Assembly: GCF_014243445.1 (NCBI RefSeq) | Contig: NZ_JACLQD010000003.1 | Location: forward strand, 124,001 to 188,000 | Length of the DNA: 64,000 bases | DNA from: Paragemmobacter straminiformis | GTDB lineage: Bacteria; Pseudomonadota; Alphaproteobacteria; Rhodobacterales; Rhodobacteraceae | Direction of reading: 5' to 3' | Shown: in pieces, positions 28,139-34,670 of the stretch | Layout: each line of letters opens with the position of its first letter | How positions within the stretch are numbered: the stretch's first letter is position 1 | The notes under the pieces: model-generated | Databases searched by the model: none | What the model saw: only the letters and a program-made list of their open reading frames with translations | What the model was told of the DNA's origin: nothing | Translations under genes and position numbers: made by a program

Positions 28139-29050
28139 ATGACGACAGAGCTTTCATCCTCGGCGCGGTTGCGGCTTGTGCTCGTTTCGACGGGGCCTTC
28201 GGCGGCTTTGGCCGCCGCAACCTTGCAGCAACACCTGAACCTGCCGGAACGCGTTGCGCTGGAACGGCTCAGCTCGGCGCCTTCGGTTCTGGCCGAGGGG
28301 CTTGATGCGGATACGGCACGCCGTCTGGCCAATCTGCTCCGCAGCTTTGGCCTGCGCGTGCGGGTCGACGGGGATGGCGTGACAAGCGATCTGGTCGACC
28401 TGTCGATCCAGCTTGCCATGCCGTTGCGGGTGCAGCGCACCGTGCGGCAGATCGTGGTCGAGACGGGGCTCGACGCCGGAGAGATCGGCGCGGCCCTTGC
28501 GGGTCCGGGCGGTCTGGTCCTGACCGGATTGCCGCGGGACGAGGTCTCGCGGCTGCAGCAAAGCCTTGGCCGGATGAACAGCCTGACGCTGATCGAATCC
28601 GATCCCGCCAGCGCGGTCTATGATGTGTACCTGCCCGACGGCACCGTGAACGAAGCCCTGTCCGAACGGCTTCGCATGATGGGGGCCGAGGGCGACCCCA
28701 TCACGGGTGCGGTGGCGACGGGTCTGGACCGGGCCTTGTGCCGCCATCTGGTTCAGCGCTTTCCCGATGCGGGGCTGATCGCCATCGACCGCGCGTTTCA
28801 GCGGTTTGACCTTTACCTTACGCGGGTTACGGGTTGGGTGACGCGCGATCTGGCCGATTTTCTGGCAGCGCGCACCGGTTTGCCGCGCAGCCGGTTCGAG
28901 GTGCTGTCACAGGGAACGCCGCTTCGGATCGAGCTTGGTCTGACCCATGCGGCCGCGCGGCAGTTCCGCGCCGATTACGCGACCATAGGTCTGCATACGC
29001 TGATGGTGCTTTCGGGCCTTGGGGAAGATAGCGACAATTCCATTGCTTAG
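28139..29050 (+). CDS. Uncharacterised protein with four tandem L7/L12-C-terminal-like units, before motB
   Basis: I do not recognise this 303-residue protein as a named family. Its sequence folds by eye into four similar units of ~65-75 residues, at about 9-76, 82-152, 158-222 and 221-293. Each unit reads: hydrophobic strand, helix, a LGLP/TGL-type turn, then 'L-x-x-x-P-x-V-L-x-x-G-L', another helix rich in Ala/Arg, and a closing strand. Unit 1, with LSSAPSVLAEGLDADTARRL, is strikingly like the ribosomal L7/L12 C-terminal domain (VEGAPKPVKEGVSKEEA type). There is no signal peptide or membrane helix. It is cytosolic by that measure, lies 60 bp before motB and is probably transcribed with it. 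A flagellum-related role is inferred from position only. The start has no strong ribosome site. Confidence 0.7.
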   Translation: MTTELSSSARLRLVLVSTGPSAALAAATLQQHLNLPERVALERLSSAPSVLAEGLDADTARRLANLLRSFGLRVRVDGDGVTSDLVDLSIQLAMPLRVQRTVRQIVVETGLDAGEIGAALAGPGGLVLTGLPRDEVSRLQQSLGRMNSLTLIESDPASAVYDVYLPDGTVNEALSERLRMMGAEGDPITGAVATGLDRALCRHLVQRFPDAGLIAIDRAFQRFDLYLTRVTGWVTRDLADFLAARTGLPRSRFEVLSQGTPLRIELGLTHAAARQFRADYATIGLHTLMVLSGLGEDSDNSIA

Positions 29051-29110: not shown

Positions 29111-29944
29111 ATGGCCGCGCAGGGCAATGCCGCGCCGGTTATCATCAAGCGCAAGAAGGTTATCGCGGGTGGCGGTCATCACGGGGGGGCCTGGAAGGTC
29201 GCCTATGCTGACTTTGTGACTGCGATGATGGCCTTTTTCATGCTGATGTGGCTGTTGAACGCGACGACGGAAAAGCAACGCAAGGGGATTGCGGATTACT
29301 TCAACCCGACGATTCCGGTGAACCGCATTTCGGGCGGCGGCGACGGGTCTTTCGGCGGCGATTCCGTGCTGTCGGAGCAGACGCTTGCGCAGAACGGCAC
29401 GGGGGCATCGGCGTCGGTTCCGACCGAAGAGATGCAGGCGCGGGGCGAAAGCGGCGAGAAGGACTCGGTCGCCGAGGCCGAAACGCTGGTCGAGGTGGAA
29501 AAGGCCCTGACCGCGCGCACGGGTGAAAGCATGACGATGGAGCGCCTGATGCGCCATGTCGTCACCCGGGTCACGGACGAGGGGTTGGTGATCGAGCTGT
29601 TCGACGTCGAGGATCAGGCCCTGTTCCTGCCGGATTCGGCCATGCCCGACCATGTGCTGACCGAGATCGCGGGCGTGCTGGTCGAGGTGCTGGACCTTGC
29701 CAGCAATCAGGTCGCGGTGAACGGGCATGTGCGAAGCTATCCCTTGCCGCTGATCGAGAACCCGACGTGGAACCTGTCGGCCGAGCGCGCGCAGGTGATG
29801 CGGGGGTTGCTGGAAAAGGCGGGGCTGGATGCGGCGCGGGTCCAGAGGGTGACGGGCTTTGCCGACCGCAAGACGGTGACCGCGAACCCGCAGGCGATAC
29901 GCAACAACCGGATCGAGGTGATCTTGCTGCGCAAGAACCGGTAA
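29111..29944 (+). CDS. motB: Flagellar motor stator protein MotB
   Basis: A 277-residue stator subunit that couples proton flow to rotation. It has a basic N-terminus with KRKKVIAGGGHHGGAWKVAY, the single membrane helix with the proton-carrying Asp in YADFVTAMMAFFMLMWLL, a flexible linker rich in Gly/Ser/Glu, and a C-terminal OmpA-like domain with VNGHVRSYPLPLIENPTWNL, the SAERAQVMRGLLEKAGLD segment and a late NNRIEVIL. The OmpA domain is a diverged version of the usual peptidoglycan-binding site (NxxLSxxRA). motA is not in this window, so the stator pair is split. It follows the L7/L12-like repeat gene by 60 bp; a weak CtrA-like TTAG-N7-TTCAC lies at 29047. Confidence 0.88.
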   Translation: MAAQGNAAPVIIKRKKVIAGGGHHGGAWKVAYADFVTAMMAFFMLMWLLNATTEKQRKGIADYFNPTIPVNRISGGGDGSFGGDSVLSEQTLAQNGTGASASVPTEEMQARGESGEKDSVAEAETLVEVEKALTARTGESMTMERLMRHVVTRVTDEGLVIELFDVEDQALFLPDSAMPDHVLTEIAGVLVEVLDLASNQVAVNGHVRSYPLPLIENPTWNLSAERAQVMRGLLEKAGLDAARVQRVTGFADRKTVTANPQAIRNNRIEVILLRKNR

Positions 29945-30039: not shown

Positions 30040-31578
30040 ATGTCGATTTCCTCATCTTTGAACGCCGGTGTTGCCGGATTGAATGCCAATGCCACGCGGC
30101 TTGCGGCGATTTCCGACAACATCGCCAATTCGGGCACCTATGGCTACAAGCGCGCCTCGGCCGATTTCGAAAGCATGGTCATCACCTCGGCCCGCGGGTC
30201 GGGGACCTATTCGGCGGGCGGGGTGCGGGCCTCGACCACGCGGTTGATCGAGGAGCGGGGGGCGCTGGTCGGCACGGCCAATTCGCTGGACATCGCGGTT
30301 TCGGGGCGGGGGATGCTGCCTGTCATTCCGGCGGTGTCGATGGGGTCGGATTTTTCGGACCAACCCTTGGTGATGACGACGACGGGTGCATTTCGCACCG
30401 ATGCCAACGGGGTTCTCAAGACGGAATCGGGGCTGGTGCTGCTGGGGTGGCCTGCCAATGCCGACGGGTCGATCCCGGTCAACGCCCGCGATACGATCCA
30501 GGGGCTGCAACCGGTGGTCATCAACGCCAACCAGACAGCGGGCGACCCGACGACGGTGATGGGACTGGGCGTGAACCTGCCCGCCGTGCAGACCGAGGCG
30601 GGGGCTAGCGGCGGCACGCTGCCGCTGTCGGTCGAGTATTTCGGCAACCTCGGCACGTCTGAAACGCTGGACATCACCTTTACCCCCGACGTTCCGGCAA
30701 CCGGGGCGTCGAACAAGTGGAACATGGTGATCCGCGATTCCGCCCAAGGCGGCGCGGTGATCGGGGAATATACGCTGGTGTTCGACGACAGCCGCGGCAA
30801 CGGGGGCACGCTGTCTTCGGTTACGGCGGTGTCCGGCGGCGCCTATGACGCGGCGGCGGGCACGCTGGCGCTGACGGTCAAGGGTGGCCCGATGACGGTG
30901 ACTATCGGGCGCCTGGGCGATCCGAACGGGCTGACGCAGCTGTCCGACAGCTTCGCGCCCGTGTCGATCACCAAGGATGGCTCGCCGGTCGGTAACCTGA
31001 CGGCGGTCGAGGTGGACGAGAACGGTTTTGTCACGGCAAGCTATGACACCGGCTTCATCCGCCGCATCTACCAGATCCCGCTGGTCGACGTGCCGAACCC
31101 GAACGGCCTGCGGACCATGTCGAACCAGACCTATCAGGTCTCTCCCCAGTCGGGGAATTTCTTCCTGTGGGATGCGGGAACGGGGCCGACGGGCAAGGTG
31201 ATCGGCTACGCGCGCGAGGGGTCGACGACCGATGTGGCGGCGGAACTGACCGCGCTGATCCAGACGCAGCGGGCCTATTCCTCGAACGCCAAGGTGATCC
31301 AGACGGTGGCATTGTCCTTGGCGCTGCCGACCGACTTGCCGGTCGAGATTTCGGACTGCGTCTTGCTCAGCCCCGCGTTGATGGATTTCATGGTTTGCAG
31401 CGCGACCATCGCGCTGGTGTTGGTCAGAATCGACGACATGTTTTCCGTCCTTTCGTGCAGCGCGGCTTTGGCGGCTGCGTTTTGGGAGTGGCGGCTTCTG
31501 GCCGGTGCGGTCTGTGCCGCGCCATCCCGTCGGGGATGCAGGGACCAGTCAAATCCAAGGGTGCTAAGTCTTTGCTAA
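30040..31578 (+). CDS. flgE: Flagellar hook protein FlgE with its 3' end replaced by antisense flagellin sequence
   Basis: Residues 1 to ~423 are a normal hook protein. It has the rod/hook N-terminus SSLNAGVAGLNANATRLAAI with DNIANSGTYGYKR, the FlgE middle with TTGAFRTDANGVLKTESG, and the late block TDVAAELTALIQTQRAYSSN ending AKVIQTV. The last ~16 residues, normally an amphipathic helix (DEML... type), are missing. From about base 31309 the frame runs backwards through the start of a flagellin gene and its upstream region, adding ~88 meaningless residues up to the stop at 31578. The C-terminal helix packs in the hook core, so this product is probably not functional. Upstream is a CtrA-like box; motB precedes it. 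FlgE identity is firm; the fusion tail is a rearrangement or assembly artefact. Confidence 0.85.
   Translation: MSISSSLNAGVAGLNANATRLAAISDNIANSGTYGYKRASADFESMVITSARGSGTYSAGGVRASTTRLIEERGALVGTANSLDIAVSGRGMLPVIPAVSMGSDFSDQPLVMTTTGAFRTDANGVLKTESGLVLLGWPANADGSIPVNARDTIQGLQPVVINANQTAGDPTTVMGLGVNLPAVQTEAGASGGTLPLSVEYFGNLGTSETLDITFTPDVPATGASNKWNMVIRDSAQGGAVIGEYTLVFDDSRGNGGTLSSVTAVSGGAYDAAAGTLALTVKGGPMTVTIGRLGDPNGLTQLSDSFAPVSITKDGSPVGNLTAVEVDENGFVTASYDTGFIRRIYQIPLVDVPNPNGLRTMSNQTYQVSPQSGNFFLWDAGTGPTGKVIGYAREGSTTDVAAELTALIQTQRAYSSNAKVIQTVALSLALPTDLPVEISDCVLLSPALMDFMVCSATIALVLVRIDDMFSVLSCSAALAAAFWEWRLLAGAVCAAPSRRGCRDQSNPRVLSLC
31275..31439 (-). pseudogene. fliC: Flagellin gene, first ~44 codons only (3' part lost at the flgE junction)
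   Basis: Reading the minus strand from ATG 31439 gives MSSILTNTSAMVALQTMKSI, then NAGLSKTQSEISTGKSVGSA and KDNA, the standard N-terminal D0 helix of alphaproteobacterial flagellins (SILTN...ALQT...IS(T)GK..GSAKDNA). After residue ~47 (TVW) it runs into the complement of flgE and stops at 31275. Everything beyond the first helix is missing, so it cannot make a filament subunit. AAAGGACGG lies just upstream of the ATG and a CtrA-like box ~125 bp upstream, so the promoter side appears intact. This small fragment is shorter than most gene finders report. It faces flgE tail-to-tail. Confidence 0.85.
31563..31578 (-). promoter_or_regulatory. CtrA-like box upstream of the flagellin fragment
   Basis: On the minus strand TTAG-CAAAGAC-TTAGC, with 7-bp spacing, differs from TTAA-N7-TTAAC at two positions. 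It lies 124 bp before the flagellin ATG, room for a promoter plus the long leader usual for flagellin mRNA. Confidence 0.45.
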
Positions 31579-31607: not shown

Positions 31608-31913
31608 TCAAATCCGCTTTGATCCGGCAACAGGCGCGCTGCGGTCGATGCGTCGGCCCGTGCCGTCATAGGTGGTCAGGCTGCGGCCCGAGCGCAGGTC
31701 GGACAGGCGGCGCGAGGCGGCGCGCAGGCCAGCCATGGCAGCTTGCAAAAGCTGCGCGTTCTCGCGTGCGATGCACGCGGCACGGCGCAGGGTTGCGGGG
31801 TCTGGCCCGGGTAAAACAGTGTCTAACATGGCTGAAATTGCCGATATCCGCGCAAATTCCCCTTGGCGAAGGGCGGTACGAAGATCGTCAAGTAGCTGGT
31901 CAACCGGCTGCAT
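31608..31913 (-). CDS. flgN: FlgN-like flagellar chaperone
   Basis: A 101-residue, mostly helical protein: LLDDLRTALRQGEFARISAI, a turn PGPDP, then LRRAACIARENAQLLQAAMA with GLRAASRRLSDLRSG and the tail SLTTYDGTGRRID. The two long helices and the (L/S)xTYDxxGR tail fit the alphaproteobacterial FlgN-type export chaperone, which guards hook-associated proteins FlgK and FlgL in the cytosol. It overlaps flgJ by 14 bp and ends 168 bp before the flagellin start on the same strand. FlgK and FlgL themselves are absent here. Assignment rests on length, helix pattern, tail and context. Confidence 0.68.
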   Translation of the reverse strand: MQPVDQLLDDLRTALRQGEFARISAISAMLDTVLPGPDPATLRRAACIARENAQLLQAAMAGLRAASRRLSDLRSGRSLTTYDGTGRRIDRSAPVAGSKRI

Positions 31914-32163
31914 CCTTGCCCCCCATCGCGCGAAACAGTGCTTCTGTCAGGCCGATGCCGCCCGCGCGGACCATTGCCTTTGCCTGCGCCTCGCGCAGGA
32001 ACGAGGCGAATTGTTCTTCGCCGATGCCGCCTGTGAATGCGCCCTGCTGCGGACCAAGCCCCGCATGGCCCAGCATTTCGGCAAGGAACGCGGTTTCGAG
32101 GTCTTGTGCCTTGGCGCGCAGCGATGACGCGGGCGGGGTGACAGAGGAGAGGGGCGGGATCAC
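31900..32163 (-). CDS. flgJ: FlgJ-type rod-binding protein (short form)
   Basis: An 87-residue protein with the rod-binding domain of FlgJ: LRAKAQDLETAFLAEMLGHA, then GEEQFASFLREAQAKAMVRA with GGIGLTEALFRAM. The muramidase domain of enterobacterial FlgJ is absent, as is usual in alphaproteobacteria. I chose GTG 32163 because GGAG stands seven bases before it; no in-frame ATG gives a sensible start, and the long ORF to 32745 is the antisense of fliK. It would help cap or assemble the periplasmic rod. It is the first gene of a minus-strand unit with flgN and the broken fliC, divergent from fliK-flgD. Confidence 0.75.
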   Translation of the reverse strand: MIPPLSSVTPPASSLRAKAQDLETAFLAEMLGHAGLGPQQGAFTGGIGEEQFASFLREAQAKAMVRAGGIGLTEALFRAMGGKDAAG

Positions 32164-32208
32164 GGGCAGGCTCCATTCTGGACTGCGAGGCAGAATGCCG
32201 GCCGCGGG

Positions 32209-32224: not shown

Positions 32225-32268
32225 GGATGGCGGCGATGCTGGCGGGGTGCGGCAGAAGGTCGGTGCGG

Positions 32269-34020
32269 ATGATTCCCTTGGTGCTTGGTTCGGTGACGAT
32301 GCGGGGCGAAACAGTCTCTGACATTGCGCAAACGGGTGATCTTGTGGCGTGCTTCGCTGTCGAGGGCGTGCCGGAAGCGGGCGGCTTTGCCCTGCCGGAT
32401 GTGGCCGTTCCGGTGGCGGACCCTGCCGCTATGGCCAGCGCTGCGGTTGCCCTGCCCCCTGTGGCGGTGCCGCAGGCCGGCGCGATGTTCTGGCAGACAA
32501 CGGGGCAGGAAGATGCGGGCGTGCCGCTTCCGGTCGCAGGGGATGCGCCGAAGGAAACCGACCTGCATGACAAGGATGCGGGGCCGCCCGCCCCATTCCT
32601 GCCGCCCTTGGCCGTGCTGCCTGTGGCTGTGCCATTGCCCTTGGCAGGCAGGGCGCCTGTGGTGGCAAAGGAAACCGCGCCCCCGCCCGATGGTGCGGCG
32701 GCGGCATCGGGGGCGGTTTTTCATGCGCGGGACAGCATATCGCAAGGTCGGGATGATCTGCCCGATGCGGACAGGGTGGCGGTCGCTGCACCCTTGCCGC
32801 CCGTTCTGTCAGGCGGGGCTGTGGCGGTCTTGCCTGTCATGCGGGCGGCGGTAGTTGACGGGGCGGCACAATCTGCCGGACAGGTGGGTGAAGTCCGCCC
32901 GGGCGCAGAGGCAGAGAGGGTAGGCCCCTTGCCCGTCGCGGCGAAAGGCGCGCCCGATGGCGGGCGCGAGGGGGTGGCGGAACGGGCATCATTCCCCCCC
33001 GCGGTTGCCACGCCGCAAGCGGGGGGGCGGGACGCTGCACCCCGACAGCCCGCAAAACCGCCCTTGGGGCCGTCAGATCGGGGCGATATGCCGGCTTTGG
33101 CCGCTTTGCCTGCGGTAGAAGGGTCTGCCCCGCCCGCGCGGGCCGTGCCTTTGGCTTTTCCCGAAGGCGTGGCAGGACCGCAAGCCCAAGTGCCTGTTGC
33201 GGGGCGGGCGGTCATCGGGCTGCCGCCTGCCGTTTCCGAGGTGCCGCACCATGCGGCGGCGGATAGGTCGGGCGATTTGGCCCCGACGCCTGCCATCGTG
33301 GTGCCCGATGCAAAGGGGGCGCCGCCCTTGGCCGCGCCCGAGCCGGAAAGCGTGGTAAAGGAAAGGCCGACGAAGGCGGATGTTCCGCCGCAGCCTGACG
33401 ATATGGCCGCCAGCCTTTCGACGGCCAAGGATGCGCCCCTGCCGCCCGAACGGATCGACGCGCGGGGCGCTGGGCCGGGAATCGAAGAAGGTGCCCGCCC
33501 GTCCTTCGGGTCGCCTGCCGAAAGCGCGGCCGTTGAAGCCGCGCAACCGGCCAGCGGCTTTGCCCCCTTGCAAGGCGGTGCCGACCCCGCCGCGCCCTTG
33601 GCCGAAGGGCCTGTCGCGCACAGACCCGCCCCGATCCGGCACGAATTGCCGCCGGGCGTTCCTGCGGCGCTTGTGCAGCAGGCACAAACGGGGACCGAGG
33701 GGCCTGTGACTGTCATGCTTAGCCCCGAAGACCTTGGCCCCCTGCGGTTCGAGATGCAGGGGCGCGGCGATGCGATCCATGTGGCGCTGGTGGTCGAACG
33801 GCCCGAGACGCTGGACCTGCTGCGCAGACATTCCGACCAGTTGGTGGCCGAGTTCCGTCAGGCGGGCTTTGCCGGAGCGTCGTTTTCCTTTTCCGGCACG
33901 GGTGGCCAGGAGCGCGGGGTTCCGCACCCCCGTCACTATCGCGCTGCAGAGAGCGACGGTGAAATCGTGACGGTGAAACCGCGCAGACCGGCCCGCGACG
34001 GGCTGGATTTGCGCCTGTGA
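32269..34020 (+). CDS. fliK: Flagellar hook-length control protein FliK
   Basis: A 583-residue protein with the two-part build of FliK: a long, low-complexity N-terminal ruler rich in Pro, Ala, Val and Gly (residues ~20-470) and a compact C-terminal switch domain. The switch is seen in VTVMLSPEDLGPLRFEMQGR, IHVALVVERPETLDLLRRHS and DQLVAEFRQAGFAGASFSFS. It sets hook length and switches export from hook to filament proteins. ATG 32269 has AAGG nine bases upstream; an earlier start at 32227 is possible. Followed by flgD after 11 bp. The ruler evolves fast, so only the C-terminal domain supports the name. Confidence 0.82.
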   Translation: MIPLVLGSVTMRGETVSDIAQTGDLVACFAVEGVPEAGGFALPDVAVPVADPAAMASAAVALPPVAVPQAGAMFWQTTGQEDAGVPLPVAGDAPKETDLHDKDAGPPAPFLPPLAVLPVAVPLPLAGRAPVVAKETAPPPDGAAAASGAVFHARDSISQGRDDLPDADRVAVAAPLPPVLSGGAVAVLPVMRAAVVDGAAQSAGQVGEVRPGAEAERVGPLPVAAKGAPDGGREGVAERASFPPAVATPQAGGRDAAPRQPAKPPLGPSDRGDMPALAALPAVEGSAPPARAVPLAFPEGVAGPQAQVPVAGRAVIGLPPAVSEVPHHAAADRSGDLAPTPAIVVPDAKGAPPLAAPEPESVVKERPTKADVPPQPDDMAASLSTAKDAPLPPERIDARGAGPGIEEGARPSFGSPAESAAVEAAQPASGFAPLQGGADPAAPLAEGPVAHRPAPIRHELPPGVPAALVQQAQTGTEGPVTVMLSPEDLGPLRFEMQGRGDAIHVALVVERPETLDLLRRHSDQLVAEFRQAGFAGASFSFSGTGGQERGVPHPRHYRAAESDGEIVTVKPRRPARDGLDLRL

Positions 34021-34031
34021 AGGAGGTGGCG

Positions 34032-34670
34032 ATGGAGATTGCACAGGTTACGACAAAGCCCACGCAGACCACGAAACCCGCGATCAGTGCGGATTTCGAT
34101 ACGTTCCTGAAGATGCTGACCGTGCAGATGACGAATCAGGATCCGATGAACCCGATCGAGGGCGCCGATTACGCGGTGCAGCTGGCGACCTTTTCGGGGG
34201 TCGAGCAGCAGGTCAAGACGAACCAGTTGCTTGCCGATCTGGCCGCGCAGTCGAGCCTTGCGAATATGGCGCAGCTTGCCGGATGGGTGGGGCAAGAGGC
34301 GCGGTCCGCCGCGCCCGTGTGGTTCGAGGGGTCTCCCGTGACGATATCGCCCAAACCGGCGACAACGGCCGATGGCGCGACGCTGGTGGTCACGGACGCA
34401 TCGGGCAAGGTCGTCTCGCGCGAGGAGGTGCCCGTCAACGCCACGTCCTATGCGTGGTATGGGGCCGATGCGGCGGGTGATCCGCTGCCGCCGGGGAAAT
34501 ACACGCTGAAGCTGGAAAGCCGCGCGGCGGGGGCTGTGCTGCGGACCGATCCGGTGGAAAGCTACGCGCCGATCACCGAAGCGCGGCGCGGGCCGGACGG
34601 GGTGGAACTGATCCTGCGCGGGGGAATCGCCGTGAAGGCGACCGATGTGACAGCACTTCGCGCGCCCTGA
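34032..34670 (+). CDS. flgD: Flagellar hook capping protein FlgD
   Basis: A 212-residue hook scaffold protein. The N-terminal signature ISADFDTFLKMLTVQMTNQD followed by PMNPIEGADYAVQLATFSGV and EQQVKTNQLL is diagnostic. The C-terminal part is the FlgD tudor/Ig-like region with VVTDASGKVVSREEVPV and DPLPPGKYTLKLE. It caps the growing hook and is removed later. ATG 34032 is preceded by a perfect AAGGAGGT site; the GTG at 34017 lies before that site and is rejected. It is 11 bp after fliK, so both form one operon. Confidence 0.92.
   Translation: MEIAQVTTKPTQTTKPAISADFDTFLKMLTVQMTNQDPMNPIEGADYAVQLATFSGVEQQVKTNQLLADLAAQSSLANMAQLAGWVGQEARSAAPVWFEGSPVTISPKPATTADGATLVVTDASGKVVSREEVPVNATSYAWYGADAAGDPLPPGKYTLKLESRAAGAVLRTDPVESYAPITEARRGPDGVELILRGGIAVKATDVTALRAP

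Follow-up and report, generated by a model that had tools for sequence, protein, structure and literature searches.

The window analysed here is a stretch of 64,000 nucleotides (positions 124001-188000 of contig C10 of genome G000, a 4.1 Mb draft assembly in 16 contigs). The locus under study consists of motB, flgE, the start of a flagellin gene, two small ORFs, fliK and flgD, and is flanked by an aldo-keto reductase gene and ubiB, both of which were named by reading. Upstream of motB, the gene at 28139-29047 occurs in most of the genus members read and is fast evolving (38-71% identity), and its counterpart in the relative G013 has no Pfam match. The features of the locus are as follows:

29111..29944, plus strand: motB of the archetypal, fla1-type cluster, ORF intact (Pfam MotB_plug, 8.2e-20); found in the same place in intact and deleted relatives
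30040..31308, plus strand: flgE codons 1-423, with the last 12 codons lost (97% identical to G013 flgE; site comparison)
31299..31309, no strand: core of the joint, CCAGACGGTGG; the exchange falls just past codon 423, on the G at 31309 (sequence comparison)
31309..31578, plus strand: antisense tail of 89 codons including the stop, where flgE reads through into fliC and its upstream region (ORF; site comparison)
31308..31439, minus strand: fliC codons 1-44, the rest lost; the frame ends at 54 amino acids inside antisense flgE (Flagellin_N; 95% identical to G013 fliC)
31608..31913, minus strand: short gene with counterparts at the same place in G013 and G007 (47-50% identical); conserved, and called flgN-like solely from its position (no Pfam match)
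31900..32170, minus strand: small, poorly defined ORF (weak matches in relatives; no Pfam match)
32227..34020, plus strand: fliK (Pfam Flg_hook, 5.1e-14)
34017..34670, plus strand: flgD (Pfam FlgD, 1.3e-17; FlgD_ig, 3.9e-13)

The ORF at 31900..32170, which may be rod-binding-protein-like, is interrupted in 4 of the 15 loci with the joint described below and in 1 of 2 intact loci where it was matched. The flgN-like designation of the preceding gene follows the synteny with P. inhibens in the available text of PMC12363192.

The plus-strand ORF 30040-31578 encodes 512 amino acids, which correspond to FlgE through residue 423 and continue into antisense codons from the fliC side. The Pfam Flg_bbr_C match at residues 393-423 accordingly stops at position 36 of the 46-position profile, and in the eight intact relatives read at this place FlgE extends 12 residues further, as DEMLQETTNIKR. 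On the minus strand, 44 codons of a flagellin N-terminus (31439-31308) are followed by antisense flgE up to a stop, and the frame matches positions 1-41 of the 139-position Flagellin_N profile (E 2.8e-08). Comparison with intact relatives places the joint at 31308/31309, at the end of the stretch that both genes have in common, and on its 5′ side G000 and G013 share 45 identical bases. The first-pass annotation had read a normal FlgE to about residue 423 followed by nonsense, a minus-strand flagellin start of about 44 codons running into complementary flgE, and two genes truncated at their 3′ ends and lying tail to tail, all of which was borne out. The truncated flgE-fliC joint is confirmed as real, and its recurrence in 44 distinct 140-bp joint sequences excludes chance.

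The deleted part of the cluster

The intact relatives G013 and G007, with FlgE 97% and 89% identical to that of the window, carry a full flagellar cluster in the same neighbourhood, in which 24.7 and 24.6 kb, respectively, lie between the two points that are joined in G000; across intact relatives this distance is 24.6-25.4 kb and spans flgK to most of fliC. In G013 the block runs flgK, flgL, flgI, fliP, fliN, fliH, fliF, fliL, motA, a lytic transglycosylase gene, flhA, fliR, flhB, a second fliL, flgH, flgA, flgG, flgF, fliQ, fliE, flgC, flgB, fliI, a DUF1217 protein gene, flbT, flaF and fliC, together with some ORFs of no assigned role; the gene names were mostly given by reading, and eight less obvious block ORFs were scanned by Pfam. 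The available text of PMC12363192 gives the fla1-type order as motBflgEKLI, with flbT to flgD downstream, and the missing block is the core of this cluster. Both cluster ends, motB-flgE and fliC-flgN-fliK-flgD, are present in order in G000 and the middle is missing, and the locus is a remnant rather than a working fla1-type cluster.

The flgK of this system is gone from the G000 genome, where its search gave just two weak hits, both to the N-terminus (33-35% over about 60-75 residues) and one of them to flgE. No match to flgL, flaF or flbT was obtained in the window, in 20 kb on either side or in the second flagellar region of the genome, so that the absence of these four genes noted by the first-pass annotation holds over these ranges. 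A search for the lost 3′ part of fliC, which that annotation had also suggested, found the flagellin C-terminal domain at only two places in G000, both on contig C8. The only FlhA match, 38% identical, is likewise on C8 and of another type; export gate and basal body genes of the fla1 type were not found in G000, the FlhA and the FlgE- and FlgG-like proteins of C8 being of the other type.

These C8 genes form a second flagellar cluster at about 950-1010 kb of the contig (L004, L005), comprising flgE, flgG, flgH, flgI, fliC, fliP, fliR, flhB, fliI, fliF and flhA, with identities of 28% for FlgE and 44% for both FlgG and FlgI. Since this second cluster exists, non-motility does not follow from the deletion; the earlier expectation of a likely non-motile strain is not supported, and non-motility as a necessary result is ruled out. 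In Limimaricola, the genomes G148, G472 and G476 have the fla1 remnant and, in addition, one or two other proteins that resemble FlgE (37-38% identity).

The same joint in other genomes

A FlgE search of 61 genomes revealed long open flgE frames in several members of the genus to which G000 and G014 belong. Among these members, the identical joint, at FlgE residue 423 and FliC residue 44, is present in G002, G005, G006, G014, G017 and G018, and their FlgE proteins are 62-69% identical to that of the window; G003 gave no FlgE match, and G012 was left out of the genus reading. A joint pattern applied to 394 family genomes, approximately one per genus, gave nine matches; two lie elsewhere and seven represent the locus, which for five of the seven means a genus other than that of the window. 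The species genome collection yielded 47 pattern matches, of which nine are not this locus and 38 have flgE and fliC on either side, both ending at offset 0; 37 of these 38 loci are titled by Rhodobacterales names and one only as Alphaproteobacteria. Together with G000, G002, G006, G182, G199 and G481, the 38 loci make up the 44 distinct 140-bp joint sequences, which come from isolates and metagenomes and from genera that include Limimaricola, Marivivens, Maritimibacter, Alloyangia and Pseudosulfitobacter. The pattern that found the 38 loci itself fixes the joint and is no measure of its exactness, which is measured by the FlgE searches; these are blind to the joint, and they also recovered 20 of the 44 joint genomes. 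One joint locus of those examined, on a MAG contig (L074), has flgE split by an apparent frameshift.

Within single genera the state is mixed. Five Limimaricola genomes carry the joint, one is intact and two have no FlgE match at 1e-60, and in Marivivens the corresponding numbers are three, three and one. FlhA was searched in 41 of the 44 joint genomes, G481 being left out; none has a fla1-type FlhA, 17 have a protein at 38-42% identity, one has a short weak fragment and 23 have no FlhA-like match at E 0.001. In G182 and G199 there is no FlhA match at E 1e-150.

How often losses end at other places was read from 199 family genomes, among which 19 have a fla1-type FlgE and no fla1-type FlhA, a list made by reading, from which three weak FlgE matches near 1e-61 (G086, G179, G211) were excluded and in which an FlhA with 42% identity was taken to be of a different type. 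Nine of the 19 carry the joint, two have other losses (G258, G112) and eight keep flgK and flgL after flgE, so that nine of the 11 resolved losses share one joint and two differ. In G258 (L115, near 7040) flgI codon ~59 is joined to flgD codon ~51, with flgE, flgK and flgL in place, and in G112 (L108), another fla1 rearrangement, the sole match after flgI is to the C-terminal portion of fliP, a short distance from the flgN-like gene. The eight remaining genomes keep flgE-flgK-flgL-flgI, although flgI was not reached in G072, and two of them were read further: in G142 nothing beyond these genes was seen in the available surrounding DNA, and G027 (L103, L157) has a fla1 cluster in which some 7 kb of unrelated sequence separate flgI from fliP, its best flhA piece matching residues 9-306 only. 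Other endpoints thus occur, yet the flgE-fliC joint dominates.

The first-pass annotation had offered a deletion, an inversion or an assembly chimera as the origin of the joint, and it is a clean deletion, neither an inversion nor a chimera. The 24.7 and 24.6 kb that separate the two points in G013 and G007, the restriction of the flagellin C-terminal domain to C8 and the absence of a reciprocal joint from all 44 joint genomes support the deletion, and the last two of these rule out an inversion. The flgE 3′ end was likewise found in none of the 44; a permissive pattern gave eight matches, in eight of nine intact genomes, all of them in ordinary flgE genes. Exact patterns for the joint, the flgE 3′ end and the reciprocal joint had no match among viral contigs, and a virus contig as carrier of the joint was rejected.

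Number of events

In a FlgE tree of 128 rows, 40 of them with the joint, the distribution of the joint requires at least 23 state changes, 14 of which are forced by well supported (starred) branches. In a tree of 69 rows there are 20 changes, 14 of them forced, and 87 of 500 shuffles are as low. Both trees are built from one protein, the 128-row tree by a quick search, and the label "intact" denotes a normal flgE end, so that G258 and G112, with their other losses, count as without the joint. Deleted and intact genomes group as G000 with G013, G002 with G010, L068 with G028 and G474 with G475. Some joint genomes may nevertheless share one event, because in the 128-row tree the joint label is clustered, none of 500 shuffles needing as few changes.

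The sequence beside the joint is native to each lineage, G000 resembling G013 and G002 resembling G010; for G000, its likeness to G013 rules out that the joint was acquired from a distantly related species. In Limimaricola, the flanks of G474 are 96.7% and 95.4% identical to those of intact G475 and meet at the joint with a 12-bp overlap, and about 25.4 kb are missing. On the left, G474 shares the bases of G475 from position 13 outward at sites that differ in four other Limimaricola joints. To the right, G474 and G475 differ at 5 of 131 bases, and the other Limimaricola joints side with G474 at two or three of these (at two, all four joints; at the third, three of the four), differences that may represent changes in G475 or an exchanged tract.

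In seven intact genomes of the window genus, the gene distance patterns of the block (flgK, flgL and flgI) and of the flanks are similar (r 0.68-0.96, 15 gene pairs), which argues against a regained block and fits vertical descent. The available text of PMC12363192 likewise reports fla1 as vertically inherited; in the three clades for which it gives numbers, the cluster is absent from 7 of 50, 8 of 35 and 3 of 50 genomes.

Position of the exchange

At the site, flgE reads CAR ACN GTN GAY, and the usual sequence of intact fliC, taken on that strand, is CAG ACN GCN followed by GCN or GAN; 15 of the 18 intact fliC sites read keep CCAGAC or a one-base codon variant of it, the departures being in G008, G021 and G245. 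All 44 joints retain the T of the flgE GTN codon, although for 38 of them the T was prescribed by the search pattern. The next base in G474 likewise derives from flgE (C, where the intact G475 fliC has G), whereas G000 has the fliC base from the second position past codon 423 onward, and these two bounds narrow the exchange to the single G after codon 423. Third codon positions around the core vary among joint genomes, and the shared core bases are mostly those fixed by the two protein sequences.

The repeat at the joint is direct and imperfect, 11-12 bp long with one to three mismatches. Repeats of this quality are abundant: 268, 238 and 356 pairs of 12-mers with at most one mismatch span the block in intact G013, G007 and G475, respectively, and the longest exact repeats spanning it are 17, 14 and 14 bp. 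With 238-356 equally good pairs, microhomology alone explains the joint poorly, as a great variety of joints would be expected if the pairs were used at random. The microhomology that the first-pass annotation had suggested is present, but it is not supported as a sufficient cause.

Discussion

The precise deletion is real. Its joint, identical to the nucleotide, turns up at scattered places in the family, a distribution that needs many independent events. An identical joint in independent events is what site-specific excision leaves, and from it we infer site-directed recombination between two sites in direct orientation. Recurrent site-directed excision of the fla1 block is our favoured explanation, with a probability of roughly 0.6. 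The recombination would recognise one place in flgE and one in fliC, strand exchange would take place at the same base each time, and the block would leave and be lost. In G000 the deletion would have taken about 24.6 kb of the fla1-type core (flgK through flbT, flaF and most of fliC) and joined flgE codon 423 to fliC codon 44, the window retaining the scar. A host or mobile-element recombinase acting in trans would be a candidate agent. More tentatively, a family-wide or mobile recombination system may act as a one-way off switch that uses a fixed base in flgE and in fliC and has ejected 25 kb repeatedly in widely separated lineages. Serine-type recombination proceeds with a very short overlap and tyrosine systems with a long one, and of the two the serine type would agree more readily with an exchange confined to one base.

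Several observations count against a site-directed process. The two sites share only about 11 bp with one to three mismatches, in bases largely fixed by the proteins, other losses occur in G258 and G112, the joint label is clustered in the 128-row tree, and G474 sides with the other Limimaricola joints against G475 at two or three of the five bases on the right. No recombinase was recognised in the intact G013 block, by reading and by Pfam for eight of its ORFs, and no excised circle or reciprocal joint was found in the 44 joint genomes or, by exact pattern, among viral contigs.

An ordinary microhomology deletion, or a replication template switch at a fragile site, would dispense with a dedicated enzyme. 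In the latter version, the nascent flgE strand would stop after codon 423 and re-prime on the matching fliC stretch, which is always present because both proteins are conserved. The imperfect direct repeat is as such a process would have it, and in the product the repeat is of the flgE form up to its right end, which a template switch running from left to right at a fragile site would also yield. However, despite hundreds of equal pairs and longer exact ones, a single pair accounts for nine of the 11 resolved losses in the 199-genome sample, and G010, which is intact and closest to G002, has a repeat with three mismatches in 11; this explanation is rather unlikely.

Descent from one ancient deletion, with intact lineages having regained the block or the allele having spread between species by homologous recombination of short fragments (for example through gene transfer agents), appears distinctly improbable. 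An identical joint would be expected from descent, in Limimaricola five of the six genomes with this FlgE carry it and one is intact, and the right-side bases of G474 agree with such a history. Against it, the available text of PMC12363192 has the fla1 tree following the species tree and the losses judged independent, and block and flank distances agree in the seven intact genomes. Left of the joint, moreover, the lineage-specific bases of G474 and the 45 bases common to G000 and G013 leave little room for a transferred tract.

A different question is whether selection maintains the leftover motB, truncated flgE and fliC, fliK and flgD in this form for a separate function. The flgE frame is unbroken in 44 of 45 joint loci (41 genomes) and frameshifted in one, four of the loci being partial and ending inside flgE, and no break was seen in motB (39), fliK (32) or flgD (32) where matched. 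The dN/dS of flgE is 0.018-0.10 in deleted pairs outside Limimaricola, one saturated pair being left out, and 0.056-0.127 in intact pairs; nonsynonymous to synonymous changes number 184:437 in deleted tips and 183:391 in their intact sisters (7 pairs, one repeated row dropped), so constraint on flgE is not relaxed in the deleted tips. On the other hand, the 44 retained fliC codons also look constrained, in small numbers, which fits recent deletion better; the 23 joint genomes of 41 without an FlhA-like match have no known export route for hook proteins; the length of the antisense tail differs among joint genomes; and flgE is partly relaxed in Limimaricola (dN/dS 0.12-0.46). A kept function is thus quite unlikely, and the simplest reading is that most losses are recent.

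An assembly chimera or database artefact, finally, is practically negligible in view of the 43 further, distinct joint sequences from isolates and metagenomes, two of them from single-contig genomes (G006, G182), and of the lack of a fla1-type FlhA anywhere in the 41 joint genomes tested.

Loss of motility is usually told as random decay, whereas in this family an extensive loss has recurred at a single nucleotide, a pattern suggestive of a specific mechanism open to search. The natural series of losses allows the decay of leftover genes to be timed, and a working flagellum should not be concluded from matches to just motB, flgE, fliK and flgD. The joint may explain part of the sporadic fla1 losses in Rhodobacterales that appear in the available text of PMC12363192.

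Several known systems resemble recurrent site-directed excision of the fla1 block in part, and each differs from it. Site-specific inversion by Hin underlies flagellar phase variation in Salmonella, and in the nif elements and the sigK skin element precise developmental excisions release a fixed block at a nucleotide-exact joint; the nif and sigK elements carry their recombinase, and excision mends the gene. Here, in contrast, excision destroys two genes, and the block consists of ordinary flagellar genes with no recombinase seen in it. Unlike in flagellar phase inversion, the change is a deletion in which the block is lost, not reversible in the genomes seen. Motility is likewise changed by recombination at fixed sites in the RecV-dependent flagellar phase variation of C. 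difficile, according to the available part of PMC8890394. The fla1-type cluster, as far as the available text of PMC12363192 describes it, shares its gene order with the present locus, motB-flgE forming one end and the series fliC, flgN-like gene, fliK, flgD the opposite end, and sporadic independent losses are reported there too; that paper, however, counts losses, its main text does not use the words remnant, pseudogene or truncated, and no shared breakpoint appears in the text examined. A search of the open-library literature found no description of a recurrent flagellar breakpoint or remnant. Microhomology-mediated deletion shares with the present case a short imperfect direct repeat at the joint, but its endpoints should vary, whereas here one pair of sites dominates though hundreds are as good.
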